DNA from: Lautropia sp.
Lineage (GTDB): Bacteria > Pseudomonadota > Gammaproteobacteria > Burkholderiales > Burkholderiaceae_E
Reading direction: 5' to 3'
Assembly: GCA_030532425.1 (NCBI GenBank)
Contig: JAUNLD010000018.1
Location: 1-45,045 of the forward strand
DNA: 45,045 nucleotides
In this document: positions 22,205-30,017 of the stretch, in pieces
How the letters are laid out: the number at the start of each line of letters is the position of its first letter
Numbering within the stretch: the first letter of the stretch is position 1
Translations under genes and position numbers: made by a program
Notes under the pieces: generated by a model
What the model was told of the DNA's origin: nothing
The model's input: only the letters and a program-made list of their open reading frames with translations
Database searches by the model: none

Positions 22205-22273
22205 CCGCCCTCATGTAGTGGCCGTCGTGCTTCCTGCCGGCAGCGGGCAGGGGAGGGCCGCGGTGCCCGCGCT

Positions 22274-22667
22274 CAGTCCTGTTCCGGCTGGGGGCTTTTG
22301 TGACGTGTCGTCTGCCTGTGCAGGGCGCGGGCGCCTTCCAGTACCAGCATCAGCACGGCCAGCCAGATGGCGATGTAGGTGGGCCACTGGGCGGGCGGGA
22401 TGCGCTCGCCCAGCAGCCACGAAGCCACCACCAGCAGTACCGGTTCGACATAGATCAGCAGGCCAAAGAGACTCAGGTTCAGACGGGGTGCCGACAGGGC
22501 CTGGCAGCCGAGGGCTGCGGCGCTGATCCATCCAGGGGCGCCAGCAGATGGGTGTAGGCGTACAGCACGGCAAACAGGGCCGAGGCAGCCACGTTGAGCA
22601 GCACGCCGTCGAGGTGGTTGCTCGTGACGGAAAGGCGGGTGAAGGCGTCAGGGCGTGTAGCAGGCAT
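22274..22667 (-). pseudogene. rarD: Decayed RarD/EamA-family permease with internal deletion and frameshift
   Basis: Two pieces of one family survive in different frames. From the ATG at 22667 the N-terminus reads GVLLNVAASALFAVLYAYTH then LLAPLDG, as in the first RarD helix. Almost immediately, in another frame, the family C-terminus follows: NLSLFGLLIYVEPVLLVVAS, LLGERIPPAQWPTYIAIWLA and EGARAL, ending at a stop at 22274. Roughly 170 middle residues (about six helices) are missing. The intact family are ten-helix inner-membrane drug/metabolite exporters of about 300 residues. The remnant cannot make a working transporter. Confidence 0.8.
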
Positions 22668-22715: not shown

Positions 22716-23165
22716 TTACCTGACCTGTTGCAGCAATCTGTCGGCACGCTTGCCGTTGGACATCATCCGGGCCTTGTTCTGCTGGATGGCCTTGGTGACG
22801 GCGTCGCGGTTGACCGGCTTGCCTGCCTGGATCATGCCGATCATCGCCATCATCAGGTGCGGTGGGCAGTCGTAGAAGTAGAGCCCTTCCTTGTCGAGGG
22901 TGACGGTGAATTTCTCGTCGAGCGCGCTCTTCCAGGGGGTGGCGCCGTCCGGCACGGCCAGTGAACGTACCTGGTGACCGGAGTTGGTCGGTTCGAAGGT
23001 CACGGTGTCACCGACGGCCACTTCGAGGAAGGCCGGTTCGAACACCATGCTGCCGTCGGTGCCGTTGTTGAGCATCTTGACCGTGTGTTCGGCCGCCTGG
23101 AGCGGCGCGGTGCCCAGGATGGTGAAAGCCAGGCCGATGAGCAGGGAAGAGGTTTTCTGTTTCAT
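22716..23165 (-). CDS. Pseudoazurin (blue copper protein), internal start within the ATPase frame
   Basis: From the ATG at 23165 the product is 149 residues with a clear Sec signal peptide (MKQKTSS, hydrophobic core LLIGLAFTILG, cleavage after LQA), so the mature form is periplasmic. Type-1 copper ligands are all there: His64, Cys100, His103 and Met108 in the pattern C-x2-H-x4-M. The C-terminal two-helix tail is typical of pseudoazurin. Known members carry electrons to nitrite reductase or similar enzymes, none of which is seen nearby; here it sits at the end of an iron-uptake operon. No Shine-Dalgarno sequence precedes this ATG; the upstream 20 bases are pyrimidine-rich. Its production therefore probably depends on translation of the ATPase. 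Confidence 0.85.
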   Translation of the reverse strand: MKQKTSSLLIGLAFTILGTAPLQAAEHTVKMLNNGTDGSMVFEPAFLEVAVGDTVTFEPTNSGHQVRSLAVPDGATPWKSALDEKFTVTLDKEGLYFYDCPPHLMMAMIGMIQAGKPVNRDAVTKAIQQNKARMMSNGKRADRLLQQVR

Positions 23166-24011
23166 GATGACGGGATGGGAGGGAAGATCAGGTCGAGTCA
23201 GGTCAGGGCGGGCAGCGCCGGATCCGGTGCTCCGGCCCTCATCGACCTGGTAGCGGATCGTGCGCACGTGCGGATGGCCGAAGCGGTCGATCTGCACGTC
23301 GACCGGGACGTCATAGAGCTTTTCGATCAGCCCGGCCGAAATGACCTCGGCCGGTGGGCCGAAGGCTTGCAGCTTGCCGTCGGCCAATACCACCAGCCGG
23401 TCGGCGTATTGCGCGGCCAGATTAAGGTCGTGCAGGATGGTGACGGTGATCCAGCGGTTGGCACGGGTCTGGCGATGCAGGTGGTCCATCAGCACCACCT
23501 GGTAGCGCATGTCCAGCGCGCTGACGGGTTCGTCCAGCATCATCACCTCGGGTGAACGCAGCAGCACCTGGGCAAACAGGGCCATCTGGCGTTGCCCGCC
23601 ACTGAGCGCGTGGATGGGGCGTTCGGCGATGTGTAGCAGGCCCACGGCCTCGAGTGCCTGCAGGGCCGCCAGCACGGTGTCGTCATCGACGCGCATGCCC
23701 AGCCGGTCCAGGCGCCCCAGCATCACCACTTCCAGGGTACTGAGGTCAAGATCCAGGCGGGTGTCTTGCGGCATGTAGCCAAAGCGCTGCCGCCACTGCG
23801 GCAGGCGCTGGCTGCGCTGGTCGTCGCCGTTCAGGCGGATGTGACCCGCGCTGGGGCTCAGTTCGCCAAAGAGCGCGCGCATCAGGCTGGTTTTGCCACA
23901 CCCGTTGGGGCCGATGATGGCCGTGACCTCGCCCGGCCGGAATCCCACCGAATAACCGCAGGCGACCGGATGGGTGCCCGCGTGCAGGTGCAGGTTGTCC
24001 ACTTCAAGCAT
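22716..24011 (-). CDS. Iron-type ABC transporter ATPase, reading frame continuous with pseudoazurin
   Basis: Residues 1-255 are a FecE/FhuC-type ATPase that powers import of iron-siderophore or haem complexes at the inner membrane. Visible motifs are Walker A GPNGCGKT (34-41), Q-loop Gln82, signature LSGGQRQM (136-143), Walker B VMMLDEP (Asp160, Glu161) and switch His194. No stop codon separates it from a type-1 copper protein: a Ser/Pro-rich linker (about 256-282) leads in frame to residue 283, the first Met of a full pseudoazurin with its signal peptide. The start overlaps the permease gene by eight bases, so they are translationally coupled. If read as one 431-residue chain, the internal signal peptide would have to insert in the membrane and be cleaved. 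Alternatively translation restarts at 23165. Confidence 0.85.
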   Translation of the reverse strand: MLEVDNLHLHAGTHPVACGYSVGFRPGEVTAIIGPNGCGKTSLMRALFGELSPSAGHIRLNGDDQRSQRLPQWRQRFGYMPQDTRLDLDLSTLEVVMLGRLDRLGMRVDDDTVLAALQALEAVGLLHIAERPIHALSGGQRQMALFAQVLLRSPEVMMLDEPVSALDMRYQVVLMDHLHRQTRANRWITVTILHDLNLAAQYADRLVVLADGKLQAFGPPAEVISAGLIEKLYDVPVDVQIDRFGHPHVRTIRYQVDEGRSTGSGAARPDLTRPDLPSHPVIMKQKTSSLLIGLAFTILGTAPLQAAEHTVKMLNNGTDGSMVFEPAFLEVAVGDTVTFEPTNSGHQVRSLAVPDGATPWKSALDEKFTVTLDKEGLYFYDCPPHLMMAMIGMIQAGKPVNRDAVTKAIQQNKARMMSNGKRADRLLQQVR

Positions 24012-25134
24012 GGGCGCGCCTCCAGCCCAGGATCAGCCAGAAGAAGAAAGGCACGCCGATGATGGCCGTGACCACGCCCACCGGAAAGAGTGCGCCGGGT
24101 ACCAGTGTCTTCGACAGCACCGAGGCGGCCGACAGCATGGCGGCACCGCAGAGCATCGACAGCGGGATGAAGAAACGCTGGTCCTCGCCAACCAGCATCC
24201 GGGCGATGTGTGGCGCCACCAGCCCGATGAAGCCGATCACGCCGACGAAACTGATGGCGGTGGAGGTGAGGAAGGCCACCAGCACCAGTGTCTTGAGTCG
24301 AAGGCGTGCCACGTCGACCCCCAGGCTGCGGGCCCGGGCCTCACCCAGCCGCAGGGCCGTCAGTTTCCAGGCGTCACCCATCAGGAGTACGGTGCAGACC
24401 ACCGTGACGGTGGTGGTGATGGCCAGGGAAGCCCACGAGCTGCGTTGCAGGCTGCCGAACAGCCAGAACATGATCTGCTGGTTCAGCTCGGGGGATGAGA
24501 CGAACTGCAGCATCGACATCAGCGACTGGAACAGGAACAGCAGGGCGATGCCGGCGAGGATCAGCGTCTGCGCGCTGACCTGCCTGAACATGGCGATGCC
24601 GAACAGGAAACAGGCCGCCAGCATGCACATCAGGAAGGCGCCGATCGGCACACTGTAGAGGGGTTCGATCCGCACGCCGATGAGATCGGCATGCAGGCCA
24701 AGGGCTGCGCCCAGCCCGGAGGCTGCGGCCAGACCCAGCGTGTAGGGGCTGGCCAGCGGGTTGTCGAGCAGGGTCTGCATCTCGGCACCGCCCAGGGCCA
24801 GGGCCGCGCCCACCACCAGCGCCATCAGCGCCACCGGCAGACGGAAATCCCAGACGATGGTGCGGGCCCCGATCGAGGCGGCGTCGGGATCAAGCAGGGT
24901 GTTGAGCACGTCCCTGAGCGGCATCAGCGAAGGGCCGGTGATGACATCGAGGACGGTGGTGCACAGGATGATGAGCAGCAGCACTGCCAGCCAGATGAAG
25001 CGACGGGTTTCGCGCCGACGTTGTTGCCGCAGTGCCTGCTGCAGGGCATCAGGGGCACCGGATGTCGGCGTCATGGCCGCGCTGTCCGTCGCGCTCACGC
25101 CGGTGGCGGGGAGAGGGGATTCAGAGGTGTTCAT
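24004..25134 (-). CDS. FecCD-family iron-complex ABC transporter permease
   Basis: The 376-residue inner-membrane protein has about nine or ten hydrophobic segments and the family signatures: RLPVALMALVVGAALALGGAEMQ, NPLASPYTLGLAAASGLGAA, and near the C-terminus FVGVIGFIGLVAPHIARMLVG, followed by LVPGALFPVGVVTAIIGVPFF. The VAPHIAR region contacts the ATPase. An N-terminal 45-residue hydrophilic extension precedes the first helix. It lies between the binding protein (72-bp gap) and the ATPase (8-bp overlap), so it forms the channel of the same importer, probably for a siderophore or haem-type ferric complex. Substrate cannot be read from sequence. Confidence 0.92.
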   Translation of the reverse strand: MNTSESPLPATGVSATDSAAMTPTSGAPDALQQALRQQRRRETRRFIWLAVLLLIILCTTVLDVITGPSLMPLRDVLNTLLDPDAASIGARTIVWDFRLPVALMALVVGAALALGGAEMQTLLDNPLASPYTLGLAAASGLGAALGLHADLIGVRIEPLYSVPIGAFLMCMLAACFLFGIAMFRQVSAQTLILAGIALLFLFQSLMSMLQFVSSPELNQQIMFWLFGSLQRSSWASLAITTTVTVVCTVLLMGDAWKLTALRLGEARARSLGVDVARLRLKTLVLVAFLTSTAISFVGVIGFIGLVAPHIARMLVGEDQRFFIPLSMLCGAAMLSAASVLSKTLVPGALFPVGVVTAIIGVPFFFWLILGWRRAHA

Positions 25135-25206: not shown

Positions 25207-26322
25207 TCACTTTGCGTCATCCAGACCGACGTAGAAAGTGCCGCTGGGCACGACCGGCAGGTAACGCTTGTAGAAATCGATGTAGTTGGCCTGTGGGTCG
25301 ATATCCTTGAACAGCTGCGGATAGGAAGCCTTCGCCACGTACTGGATCGACGGATAATCGGTGATGCTGCGCGATGCCCCCTGATAGACGCCGTAGACGC
25401 GCTTGTCTTTCACGGCCGGCAGGCTGTTCCAGCCTGCGCGCTGGGTGAAGGTCTTCAGGCGCTGGATGGCATCCGCCTTTTCGACCCCCTGGCCCATCAG
25501 CATGGCGGTGGGATTCTTCTTGGGTTCAGTGCCGGCGATCAGCACCACCTGCGGCTGCGAGGTGAGGATCTGTTCGGGGTTGAGCATGCCCCAGAATTCG
25601 ACGAAGGGCGCCGAAATGTTCTCGCCGCCAGCCAGGCCGATCACGCTGCCCCACATGTTCTTGCCGTAGGTGAAGCTGTATTCGGAGGGACCCTTGTCGC
25701 CAAACTCTGCATAGACACGCGGCTTGGGCAGGCCGGCCTTTTCGATGCGCGATGACACCTCGGTGATGGCGGCCTGGTATTCGTTGGCAATCTCCTTGGC
25801 ACGCTTCTGCTGACCGGTGATCTCGCCGAACAGCAGGGTGCTGGCCACATGGTTGTCGACGCTCTGGTCGTTGTAATCGACCACGACGACAGGAATGCCG
25901 GATTTCTCCAGGCGCTCGACGTCGGGCCCCAGGCCGATGTATTGCCATTTGGCCAGCACCACCACGTCGGGCTGCAGGGCCAATACCTTTTCAACCGAAA
26001 AGCTCTGCACTTCGACCTCGCCGACGTCAGGAATGTCCTTCAGCGAGGGACGGTGGGCCACATGCAGCTTCCAGTTGGCCGGACGCCAGCCCTCCCAGGC
26101 TTCACGCGAGATGCCCACCACCTTGTCGAAGGCCTTTTCGGTGCCGACGGCCATGTAGTCCTCGAAGTAAAAGCCGAGCAGGACGCGCTTGGCGGGAGAT
26201 TCGATGCGAACCTTGCGACCTTGAATGTCGGTCACTTCCTTGGTGGCAGCATGGGCAGCGCCCATCGACAGGGTGGTGGCGAGTGCAGCCAGCAGGGTGC
26301 GGGAGGAGATGCGGATTGGCAT
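25207..26322 (-). CDS. Periplasmic iron-complex binding protein (FecB/FhuD type)
   Basis: The 371-residue protein starts at the ATG at 26322, giving a signal peptide (RTLLAALATTLSMGAAHA) with cleavage before ATKEV. The frame is open upstream but without a leader-like sequence. The mature part has the two-lobe, helix-linked fold of TroA/FecB-type binding proteins: VTDIQGRKVRIESPAKRV, LALQPDVVVLAKW, GIPVVVVDYND, GGENISAPFVEFWGMLNPEQ and QPQVVLIAG. It delivers ligand to the permease encoded next. A Fur-box-like site lies about 210 bp upstream, so iron repression is likely. It is the first gene of the three-gene uptake operon. Confidence 0.9.
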   Translation of the reverse strand: MPIRISSRTLLAALATTLSMGAAHAATKEVTDIQGRKVRIESPAKRVLLGFYFEDYMAVGTEKAFDKVVGISREAWEGWRPANWKLHVAHRPSLKDIPDVGEVEVQSFSVEKVLALQPDVVVLAKWQYIGLGPDVERLEKSGIPVVVVDYNDQSVDNHVASTLLFGEITGQQKRAKEIANEYQAAITEVSSRIEKAGLPKPRVYAEFGDKGPSEYSFTYGKNMWGSVIGLAGGENISAPFVEFWGMLNPEQILTSQPQVVLIAGTEPKKNPTAMLMGQGVEKADAIQRLKTFTQRAGWNSLPAVKDKRVYGVYQGASRSITDYPSIQYVAKASYPQLFKDIDPQANYIDFYKRYLPVVPSGTFYVGLDDAK

Positions 26323-26532
26323 GATCTGACCGAAGACTGAAAAAAATGTGAAGGGAATGTGTTGTGGCGGTGCCGGCACGTGCCCGCGGCATGAAAGGCC
26401 AGGCATGTGCCAGTGTCAGCAACGACAAACAACGGCAATCGGGGACGGGGAATGCAGGTCGGTTTTCACCCCGATGGGGGAAGATCCGGGCCTGCCACGA
26501 CACCCGTATGCCGGACAGTGATTAAAACAAAG

Positions 26533-27720: not shown

Positions 27721-28137
27721 TCATTCTTCGGGTTGCGAGATGAAACCCACCTTGGCCAGGCCGGCCTTCGAGGCATCGACGATGGTCTGGGCCACGTACT
27801 GATACGGCGTGGACTCATCGGCACGCAGGTGGACGGCGGGTTGCGGGTCTTGTGTGGCGGCTTCCTTGAAGCGGGCGGCGGCGTCTTCGCGGCTGACCGG
27901 ATCCTTGCCCCAGAAGCGGTTGCCCTCGGCATCGATCGAGAATTCGATGACGTTGGGCTTGTTGTCGGTGGGGTTGGTGGTGGCTTTGGGCAGGGCCAGT
28001 TGTACCGAATTGGTGAGCAGGGGGGCGGTGACGATGAAAATCACCAGCAGCACCAGCATCACGTCGATCAGCGGCACCATGTTGATCTCGCCCATCGGCG
28101 TGTTGCTGTGCTTGGAGTCGAAGCTGGCAAAGGCCAT
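27721..28137 (-). CDS. exbD: Biopolymer transport protein ExbD
   Basis: The 138-residue inner-membrane protein has one N-terminal helix (NMVPLIDVMLVLLVIFIVTA) containing the essential membrane Asp (PLIDVML), and a periplasmic domain. With ExbB it forms the proton channel that energises TonB. The ATG at 28137 is preceded by AGAAGGA at good spacing; an upstream in-frame ATG at 28194 would add residues without family similarity. It is third in the tonB-exbB-exbD operon, 53 bp after exbB. Confidence 0.95.
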   Translation of the reverse strand: MAFASFDSKHSNTPMGEINMVPLIDVMLVLLVIFIVTAPLLTNSVQLALPKATTNPTDNKPNVIEFSIDAEGNRFWGKDPVSREDAAARFKEAATQDPQPAVHLRADESTPYQYVAQTIVDASKAGLAKVGFISQPEE

Positions 28138-28190
28138 GAGAGGTGTCCTTCTGAGGCAGGGGACACGCCGGGTGACCCCTGCCGGGTTCA

Positions 28191-28922
28191 TCAACGATAG
28201 TCGGCGGGGGCAGTGCCGTCGCCACGCGACTGGCCGCGCAGGGTCTGGCCCGACGAGAGGAAGGCAAAAAGCTCGAAGGCAAAGGCATCCAGCTTGGCCG
28301 ACAGCACGCGGTTGCGGCGGGTGAGCCAGTTGTAGCCGACGACGGCCGGCAGGGCCACGGCCAGGCCCAGGCCGGTCATGATGAGTGCCTCGCCCACCGG
28401 GCCGGCCACCTTGTCGAGCGAGCCCGAGCCGCTGAGGCCAATACCGATCAGGGCATGATAGACGCCCCAGACCGTGCCGAACAGGCCGACGAAGGGCGCG
28501 GTCGAGCCTACGGTGGCCAGCACGGTCAGGCCGTCTTCCAGGCGCACGGTTTCTTCATCCAGCACCTTCTTGATGGTGCGGGTGAGAAAGTCCTGCTCGC
28601 TGCCGGCCTCGGCCAGGCGCGCGGTGCCATAGCGCTGGTAATGGGCGCTGGCGTGCATGGCGTTGGCCGTCAGGCGCGAGAACGGGTCCTGAATGCCCCG
28701 GGTGGCAATTTCCTGTTGCACGGCCTCCAGCGAGGAAGCTTCCCAGAACATTTTCAGGAAGCGCTCGGAGCGGCTGCCGCGGATCAGGTGGGTGACGCCC
28801 TTGATGACGATCAGCGCCCACGAGATGACCGACATGAACAGCAGGATGCCCAGCAGCGACTTGCTGACCAGATCGCCCTGCGCAATGAAATGGCCAAAGC
28901 CAAGGGTGGTGGGTTCGTTCAC
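28191..28922 (-). CDS. exbB: TonB-system proton channel protein ExbB
   Basis: The 243-residue MotA/TolQ/ExbB-family protein has three membrane helices: residues about 22-42 (LLGILLFMSVISWALIVIKG), then two after residue 120. The family region is clear at LTVLATVGSTAPFVGLFGTV and GLGLAVALPAVVGYNWLTR. ExbB pentamers surround ExbD and drive TonB with the proton gradient. It starts six bases after the tonB stop, so expression is tightly coupled. Confidence 0.96.
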   Translation of the reverse strand: MNEPTTLGFGHFIAQGDLVSKSLLGILLFMSVISWALIVIKGVTHLIRGSRSERFLKMFWEASSLEAVQQEIATRGIQDPFSRLTANAMHASAHYQRYGTARLAEAGSEQDFLTRTIKKVLDEETVRLEDGLTVLATVGSTAPFVGLFGTVWGVYHALIGIGLSGSGSLDKVAGPVGEALIMTGLGLAVALPAVVGYNWLTRRNRVLSAKLDAFAFELFAFLSSGQTLRGQSRGDGTAPADYR

Positions 28923-28928
28923 GAGTGG

Positions 28929-29837
28929 TTACTCCAGTTGAAAATCGACGGGCACATGGGCAAGGCTGCGGACGGCAACCCCCTCGCTGTTGAGCTGTGG
29001 CGTGAAGCGGGCGCCACGGACGGCGGTCACGGCGGCATCGTCCAGCCGGGGAGAGCCGGAAGACGTCAGGATGCTGATCTTCAGCGGTACACCCTGCTCG
29101 TCGATCAGCACTTCCAGCATTACCTTGCCGGTTTCGCCGGCCCGTTTGGAAAAGGCGGGGTACACGGGCCTGGGCTGGCGCAGGTAATTGACGGCGCGCC
29201 CCTGGCGTACCGGCAGGGCATCACTGGGGCCAGGACGGCCTGAACCGGGCGATGGCGGCGTGCCGGCCGGCGCGTTGGGCGTGCCCTCCACCGGCGGGGC
29301 CGGTGGGGCGGGCGGCGTGGGCGCCGGTGGGGTGGGCGCAGGCGGCGCCGGCGGTGGAGGCTCGGGTGGTGGCGGCGGCGGGGGGGGCGCCTTGGGTTTT
29401 GGCGTGGGTTTTTTGGGCTTGGGTTTGGGTTTCTTCACCTCATAAACCGGGGGAGGCGCAGGGGCCGGCGGCGGCTCGGCCACCACCGGCTCGGGCTCCG
29501 GCTCGGGTTCGGGAGGGGGCGGCGGCGGTGGAGGCGGGGGCGCAGCGGGTTCGGGGATCACCGGCGGTTGGGGAGGGGCCTCGATCAGGTCCACGTAGAC
29601 CGGCACATCGTCGCCCGCAGCGACGGTGAGCGTGTCGGCGCGACTCAGGCCGAACAGGATCAGGGCGTGCGCGGCCAGGACGCCGCCCAGCAGCGGCAGC
29701 TGGTGCCAGCGTGCCGTACCGCGATCGCGCCGGATGGCGGCAGCCAGCGAGGCGTCGAGCGCATCGGCCGATTCGGGCAGGGCAGCGGCAGACCGCACCG
29801 GGTCGGGCGCCTGTGGAGGGGCGGACGGTGTCTTCAC
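28929..29837 (-). CDS. tonB: Energy transducer TonB
   Basis: The 302-residue protein links the ExbBD motor to outer-membrane receptors. Residues 1-45 are cytoplasmic, a single helix lies at about 47-66 (LPLLGGVLAAHALILFGLS), and a long proline-rich spacer (about 85-195) includes runs of ten prolines, EP repeats and KPKPKPKK. The C-terminal TonB domain (about 215-302) reads YLRQPRPVYPAFSKRAGETG and VMLEVLIDEQGVPLKI. It is the first gene of tonB-exbB-exbD and has a strong Fur-box-like site 160 bp upstream. The spacer DNA is a GC repeat tract prone to slippage. No TonB-dependent receptor is in the window. Confidence 0.95.
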   Translation of the reverse strand: MKTPSAPPQAPDPVRSAAALPESADALDASLAAAIRRDRGTARWHQLPLLGGVLAAHALILFGLSRADTLTVAAGDDVPVYVDLIEAPPQPPVIPEPAAPPPPPPPPPPEPEPEPEPVVAEPPPAPAPPPVYEVKKPKPKPKKPTPKPKAPPPPPPPPEPPPPAPPAPTPPAPTPPAPPAPPVEGTPNAPAGTPPSPGSGRPGPSDALPVRQGRAVNYLRQPRPVYPAFSKRAGETGKVMLEVLIDEQGVPLKISILTSSGSPRLDDAAVTAVRGARFTPQLNSEGVAVRSLAHVPVDFQLE

Positions 29838-29995: not shown

Positions 29996-30017
29996 GATAA
30001 TGGTAACGATTCGCATT
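29996..30017 (-). promoter_or_regulatory. Fur-box-like site upstream of tonB
   Basis: On the plus strand the site reads GATAAT, GGTAAC, GATTCG, CATT in succession, close to the 19-bp Fur consensus and of the AATGCGAATCGTTACC form common in Pseudomonas and Burkholderia Fur targets. It lies in the 342-bp divergent gap between tonB and ribA, where no gene is seen. Iron repression of the tonB operon is inferred. Confidence 0.65.

Follow-up and report, generated by a model that had tools for sequence, protein, structure and literature searches.

Described ABC importers of the FecCD/BtuCD type, such as HmuTUV, FhuBCD and BtuCDF, consist of a Peripla_BP_2 binding protein, a FecCD permease and an ATPase, as does the operon analysed here; however, to our knowledge none of them includes a pseudoazurin. 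Discussion of pseudoazurins has centred mostly on their part in denitrification, to which they donate electrons. The ferrous iron transporter FtrABCD differs from the operon in its Ftr1-type permease and, as far as we know, in having no ABC ATPase. Its likeness lies in the cupredoxin FtrB, which works with periplasmic iron uptake according to the part of PMC11966278 considered. In Actinobacillus pleuropneumoniae, APPSER1_09785-09810 encode a binding protein, a permease, an ATPase and a pseudoazurin in the same order as here, although the pseudoazurin is a gene of its own and is followed by a second binding protein (PMC12507848, passages). These passages call it a putative iron transport-associated operon whose protein level is dramatically raised under iron starvation, and the accompanying table gives 2.38 for the pseudoazurin at protein level and −1.85 in another column, which is taken to be transcript and is negative for the genes of this operon. 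Pden_4222 is likewise a pseudoazurin, but it is clustered with nitrous oxide reductase genes (PMC9409073, passages), and settings other than an uptake operon are described in the parts considered of that paper and of PMC6180224, PMC2912261 and PMC8610252. In the literature searched, mostly titles and abstract starts with subscription papers largely outside, the partnership of importer and pseudoazurin was not found as a topic. The recurrent operon described below is real and little described in this literature; among the papers considered in passages, only PMC12507848 shows it.

The window, the whole stretch of 45,045 nt that was analysed, corresponds to contig C82 of a draft Lautropia genome, whose 125 contigs total 3.12 Mb at a completeness of 88.8%. 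An ORF of 431 codons at 22716-24011 on the minus strand runs from ATG to TAA without an internal stop; in it, the ATPase of an ABC importer is followed, after a linker of 27 codons, by a full-length pseudoazurin precursor. The features of this region are the following:

22716..23165, minus strand, pseudoazurin precursor of 149 aa with its ATG at 23165 (TIGR02375; aligned to 1bqk)
23166..23246, minus strand, linker of 27 codons (codon-position GC, out-of-frame TGA triplets, alignments)
23247..24011, minus strand, ABC ATPase domain of a FecCD/BtuCD-type importer, residues 1-255 (Pfam ABC_tran, 111.9 bits)
24004..25134, minus strand, FecCD-family permease (Pfam FecCD, 268 bits), overlapping the ATPase start by 8 nt
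25207..26406, minus strand, periplasmic substrate-binding protein (Pfam Peripla_BP_2, 85.3 bits)
27721..29837, minus strand, exbD (27721-28194), exbB (28191-28922) and tonB (28929-29837) (Pfam ExbD, MotA_ExbB and TonB_C)

The exbD, exbB and tonB genes are found farther upstream of the binding protein, whose true start may be the inner Met at 26322. The Pfam matches on the 431-residue ORF are ABC_tran, spanning residues 21-163, and Copper-bind, spanning residues 312-395. The absence of a stop between ATPase and pseudoazurin, with both halves complete, agrees with the preliminary description of this DNA, and so does the siderophore-type operon context, given by the FecCD permease and the periplasmic binding protein beside the ATPase. 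The presence of both domains in the ORF is above chance level; the open junction between them is not.

The neighbouring FecCD permease and Peripla_BP_2 binding protein give the ATPase the gene context of a FecCD/BtuCD-type ABC importer, and both genes are also found 5' of the ATPase at loci L023-L028. The best NCBIfam match of the ATPase part is the heme ABC ATPase PRK13548, with 208.2 bits under a cut-off of 261, among the 25 of 188 matches listed. No substrate-specific transporter model reached its cut-off among these 25. Relatives of solved structure are headed by a plant ABCB exporter, followed by HmuV (4g1u) in second and FhuC (7lb8) in seventh place. The only family above its cut-off among the 25 of 188 listed NCBIfam matches is the pseudoazurin family TIGR02375, with 115.6 bits against 109.85, scored within the 431-residue ORF. 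Residue-by-residue alignment to pseudoazurin 1bqk shows that His, Cys, His and Met, which we take to be its type 1 copper ligands, are all kept, and the pattern C..H....M is present in 103 of 104 matched pseudoazurin rows, the window among them. A candidate signal peptide was read by eye at the pseudoazurin N-terminus.

Orthologs of the pseudoazurin at E 1e-30 or better are carried by seven of the nine genomes of the genus, the own genome included, and were absent at this threshold from two of the eight others. All six other Lautropia with an ortholog show an ATPase gene immediately 5' of the pseudoazurin, with its own stop. In five of them the stop lies between the two genes, 78 (G041), 40 (G046), 107 (G017), 152 (G054) and 53 nt (G001) before the start; in the sixth, G026, ATPase stop and pseudoazurin ATG overlap as ATGA in different frames, which is equally no fusion. 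These arrangements speak against the single designed ATPase-pseudoazurin protein proposed in the preliminary description. The same join was then looked for among all pairs of pseudoazurin and ATPase matches lying on one strand within 600 nt, which number 30 across all loci with the window counted (L023-L027, on the same contigs as L010, L014, L012, L011 and L015, are counted once). None of the 29 other pairs is fused. The ATPase stop precedes the nearest pseudoazurin start codon in 21 of them. In the remaining eight, stop and start lie in different frames with an overlap of 4 or 7 nt: six overlaps are of the ATGA type (L012, L021, L092, L093, L115 and L028), one is of 4 nt at a GTG (L087) and one is of 7 nt (L094). 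For gaps and overlaps, the start codon is the one nearest to the aligned position of the window's Met and was not taken from an annotation. Both genes share one frame in 8 of the 29 pairs, close to the chance expectation of one third, and exactly one stop separates the in-frame genes in four (L010, L085, L086 and L091). Eight pairs (L028, L084-L089 and L091) stem from searches with the whole 431-residue ORF as the query, a choice that favours adjacent genes, and they show the existence of the pair and not its frequency; in one of these searches, which covered up to 5000 records, 8 of the 20 matches listed were inspected.

Three long frames were rejected as further joins: those of G026 and G391 differ from the ATPase frame, and near that of G075 (L114, 975 codons) an ATPase match was not found within a distance of 600 nt. 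At L090, from Aeromonas, a pseudoazurin match was not found.

Coding constraint was not found in the linker, which is neither codon-biased nor conserved. The GC content at the three codon positions is 0.78/0.63/0.63 in the linker, compared with 0.74/0.40/0.85 in the ATPase part and 0.58/0.41/0.86 in the pseudoazurin part, so that the pattern of the flanks is missing; at the third position, 17 of 27 linker codons carry G or C, whereas the flanks reach 0.85 (P 0.004 in a binomial test assuming independent codons). An alignment of six sequences, including five of the six other Lautropia, shows no conservation of the linker. Its other two frames contain one and three TGA triplets, and the ATPase stops of G046 and G041 fall on out-of-frame TGA triplets of the window in weak pairwise alignments of these two pairs. 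A stretch of 81 nt is free of stops in 53% of first-order simulations with the linker composition and in 59% with the window composition, and 67% of such stretches drawn at random from the real window are stop-free. Given the loss of the ATPase stop, a model that multiplies the stop-free share by one third for the phase puts the chance of an open junction in phase at about 0.2, roughly 1 in 5. A small length change in the freely drifting C-terminal tail of the ATPase would shift the stop out of frame; we infer such an indel as the cause of the stop loss, though softly, because the linker alignments are weak.

The pseudoazurin ATG lacks a Shine-Dalgarno sequence, as the preliminary description had stated: its duplex with the anti-Shine-Dalgarno sequence has an energy of +0.7 kcal/mol, whereas 2000 20-mers drawn at random from the window have a median of −3.3. 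This absence does not speak for read-through, since five of the six separately terminated Lautropia orthologs are equally weak (−3.5 to +0.1 kcal/mol, at most 0.2 better than the random median). Weak pseudoazurin starts are thus frequent in the genus. The sixth ortholog shows −5.8 kcal/mol and the Rhodoferax copy, with an ATGA overlap, −10.3 kcal/mol. ATPase starts show −9.3 kcal/mol in six of the eight sequences compared, and −4.6 and −4.2 in the other two. If the relatives couple translation of the pseudoazurin to the ATPase stop, loss of this stop could lower the amount of free pseudoazurin in the present strain; such coupling, together with a correct sequence, would favour the joined product as the main one.

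We consider it very probable that the ORF represents two distinct genes closing a recurrent operon, in which the in-frame stop of the ATPase was lost in one assembly and the frame ran on into the pseudoazurin by chance. The loss would be either a real recent mutation of the strain or a consensus error of the draft assembly, and the frame, once without its stop, would merely happen to reach the pseudoazurin. Should the sequence be correct, translation of the ATPase would continue into the pseudoazurin and yield a joined chain as a by-product without design. The error branch, in which the organism has an ordinary stop, takes a share of this probability that we put somewhat short of even. It is favoured by the draft state of the genome, with its 125 contigs and 88.8% completeness, and by the out-of-frame position of the TGA triplets that align with the stops of the relatives. 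However, a transporter-like remnant about 50 nt 3' of the pseudoazurin stop may mean real decay, although a sequence error in this remnant is equally possible. A functional fusion, by contrast, would hold the ATPase in the cytoplasm, pass an internal signal peptide across the membrane and have the pseudoazurin freed outside by signal peptidase. The open 431-codon frame, the two intact domains and the inner ATG without Shine-Dalgarno sequence are consistent with it; but the 29 unjoined pairs, a linker that is neither conserved nor codon-biased, and the equally weak starts of five of six separately terminated orthologs argue against it, and export following a cytoplasmic stretch of 282 residues would be unusual. 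We therefore regard a functional fusion as very improbable, and the fusion is not supported as biology. The join looks accidental, and the partnership of the ATPase and pseudoazurin genes is conserved. As an accident or error of one genome, the join is by itself of no importance; a lost stop in GC-rich DNA often yields a plausible-looking fusion.

The remnant downstream of the pseudoazurin is a broken transporter-like gene at 22273-22667 on the minus strand, with a 47-residue piece starting at 22667 and a piece in another frame ending at 22273. The only family match, for the piece ending at 22273, is a weak one to RarD (E 1.7e-4, 21 bits, cut-off 540), and the 47-residue piece was found in none of the eight other genus genomes at E 0.01, a weak test with so short a query.

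This gene order, from the binding protein through the permease and the ATPase to the pseudoazurin, recurs in alpha-, beta- and gammaproteobacteria. Annotated examples come from plasmids of Vibrio, two Paracoccus species, Ensifer and Phaeobacter, and the order was also read in Rhodoferax; in Aureimonas the last part of the operon is annotated as two hypothetical proteins. At order level, 29 of 399 genomes gave a pseudoazurin match at a threshold of E 1e-12, and among the 32 places listed an ATPase lies upstream in 17, none in 13, and the flank is short in two (L022 and L103). At class level, matches were found in 45 of 369 genomes, and none of the 29 places covered (L116-L144, out of 58 and all outside the own genome; L123 with a short flank) has an ATPase upstream. 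Within part of the family, linkage to the ATPase is thus frequent, and most of the broader sample at class level lacks it. In a quick pseudoazurin tree of 104 rows and few columns, the linked state requires 5 changes, compared with a mean of 26.2 after shuffling, a contrast inflated by near copies and joined-query rows. Linked rows are found mainly in two groups, one with 20 linked and 1 unlinked and the other with 10 linked, 3 unlinked and 1 undetermined, with supports of 90 and 93, under the starred level of the tool. Lautropia is represented in both. In five Lautropia genomes (L016 and L018-L021) a second pseudoazurin lies behind an ATPase that is itself preceded by permease sequence.

Uptake of a metal chelate, probably a ferric one, by the ABC importer is the most likely function of the operon. 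The best Fur-box-like site of the window, scanned with a 19-nt consensus, is located at 29996-30014, about 160 nt before tonB-exbB-exbD, with 5 mismatches in 19 positions (0.13 such sites expected from 60 simulated sequences), and a site with 6 mismatches (0.7 expected) overlaps the likely start codon of the binding protein. The pseudoazurin, presumably exported, would carry single electrons (or copper) in the periplasm next to the importer, a putative role that stands apart from the confidence given to the two-gene explanation. Pseudoazurin is the classical electron donor to the copper nitrite reductase NirK, which is above its family cut-off in eight of the nine genus genomes, the own genome included, and the protein could mainly serve this enzyme, its place in an ABC operon being incidental. 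We judge this somewhat unlikely, given that linkage to the importer ATPase recurs in 17 of the 32 order-level places, that linked rows cluster on the tree, and that one such operon is up at protein level in iron starvation (PMC12507848, passages). NosZ (TIGR04244) is above its cut-off in six of the nine genus genomes and was not found in the own draft genome. A more far-reaching proposal, which we hold to be unlikely, is that FecCD importers and a pseudoazurin devoted to them make up a widespread uptake module of its own kind, in which electrons would pass to the ferric chelate or the binding protein, the joined precursor being tolerated in the present strain. If true, it would mean periplasmic reduction coupled to uptake, with single electrons from a blue copper protein. 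The suggestion of the preliminary description that redox chemistry accompanies iron uptake stands only as a hypothesis on the conserved operon; if pseudoazurin acts in this way, siderophore-type uptake would include a step that depends on copper, and the supplies of copper and iron would be linked.

Further observations concern other pseudoazurin loci. The second pseudoazurin of the own genome (L022) lies in the first 400 nt of contig C53, at the contig edge; in five other Lautropia genomes, its relatives are preceded by an importer ATPase. At L086 and L088 (Paracoccus ferrooxidans and Ensifer) a methyltransferase gene lies directly 3' of the pseudoazurin. Finally, genome G739 has six pseudoazurin matches, two of them in tandem in one 500-codon frame of contig C76, and its contig C77 shows a 506-codon open frame around a pseudoazurin match.
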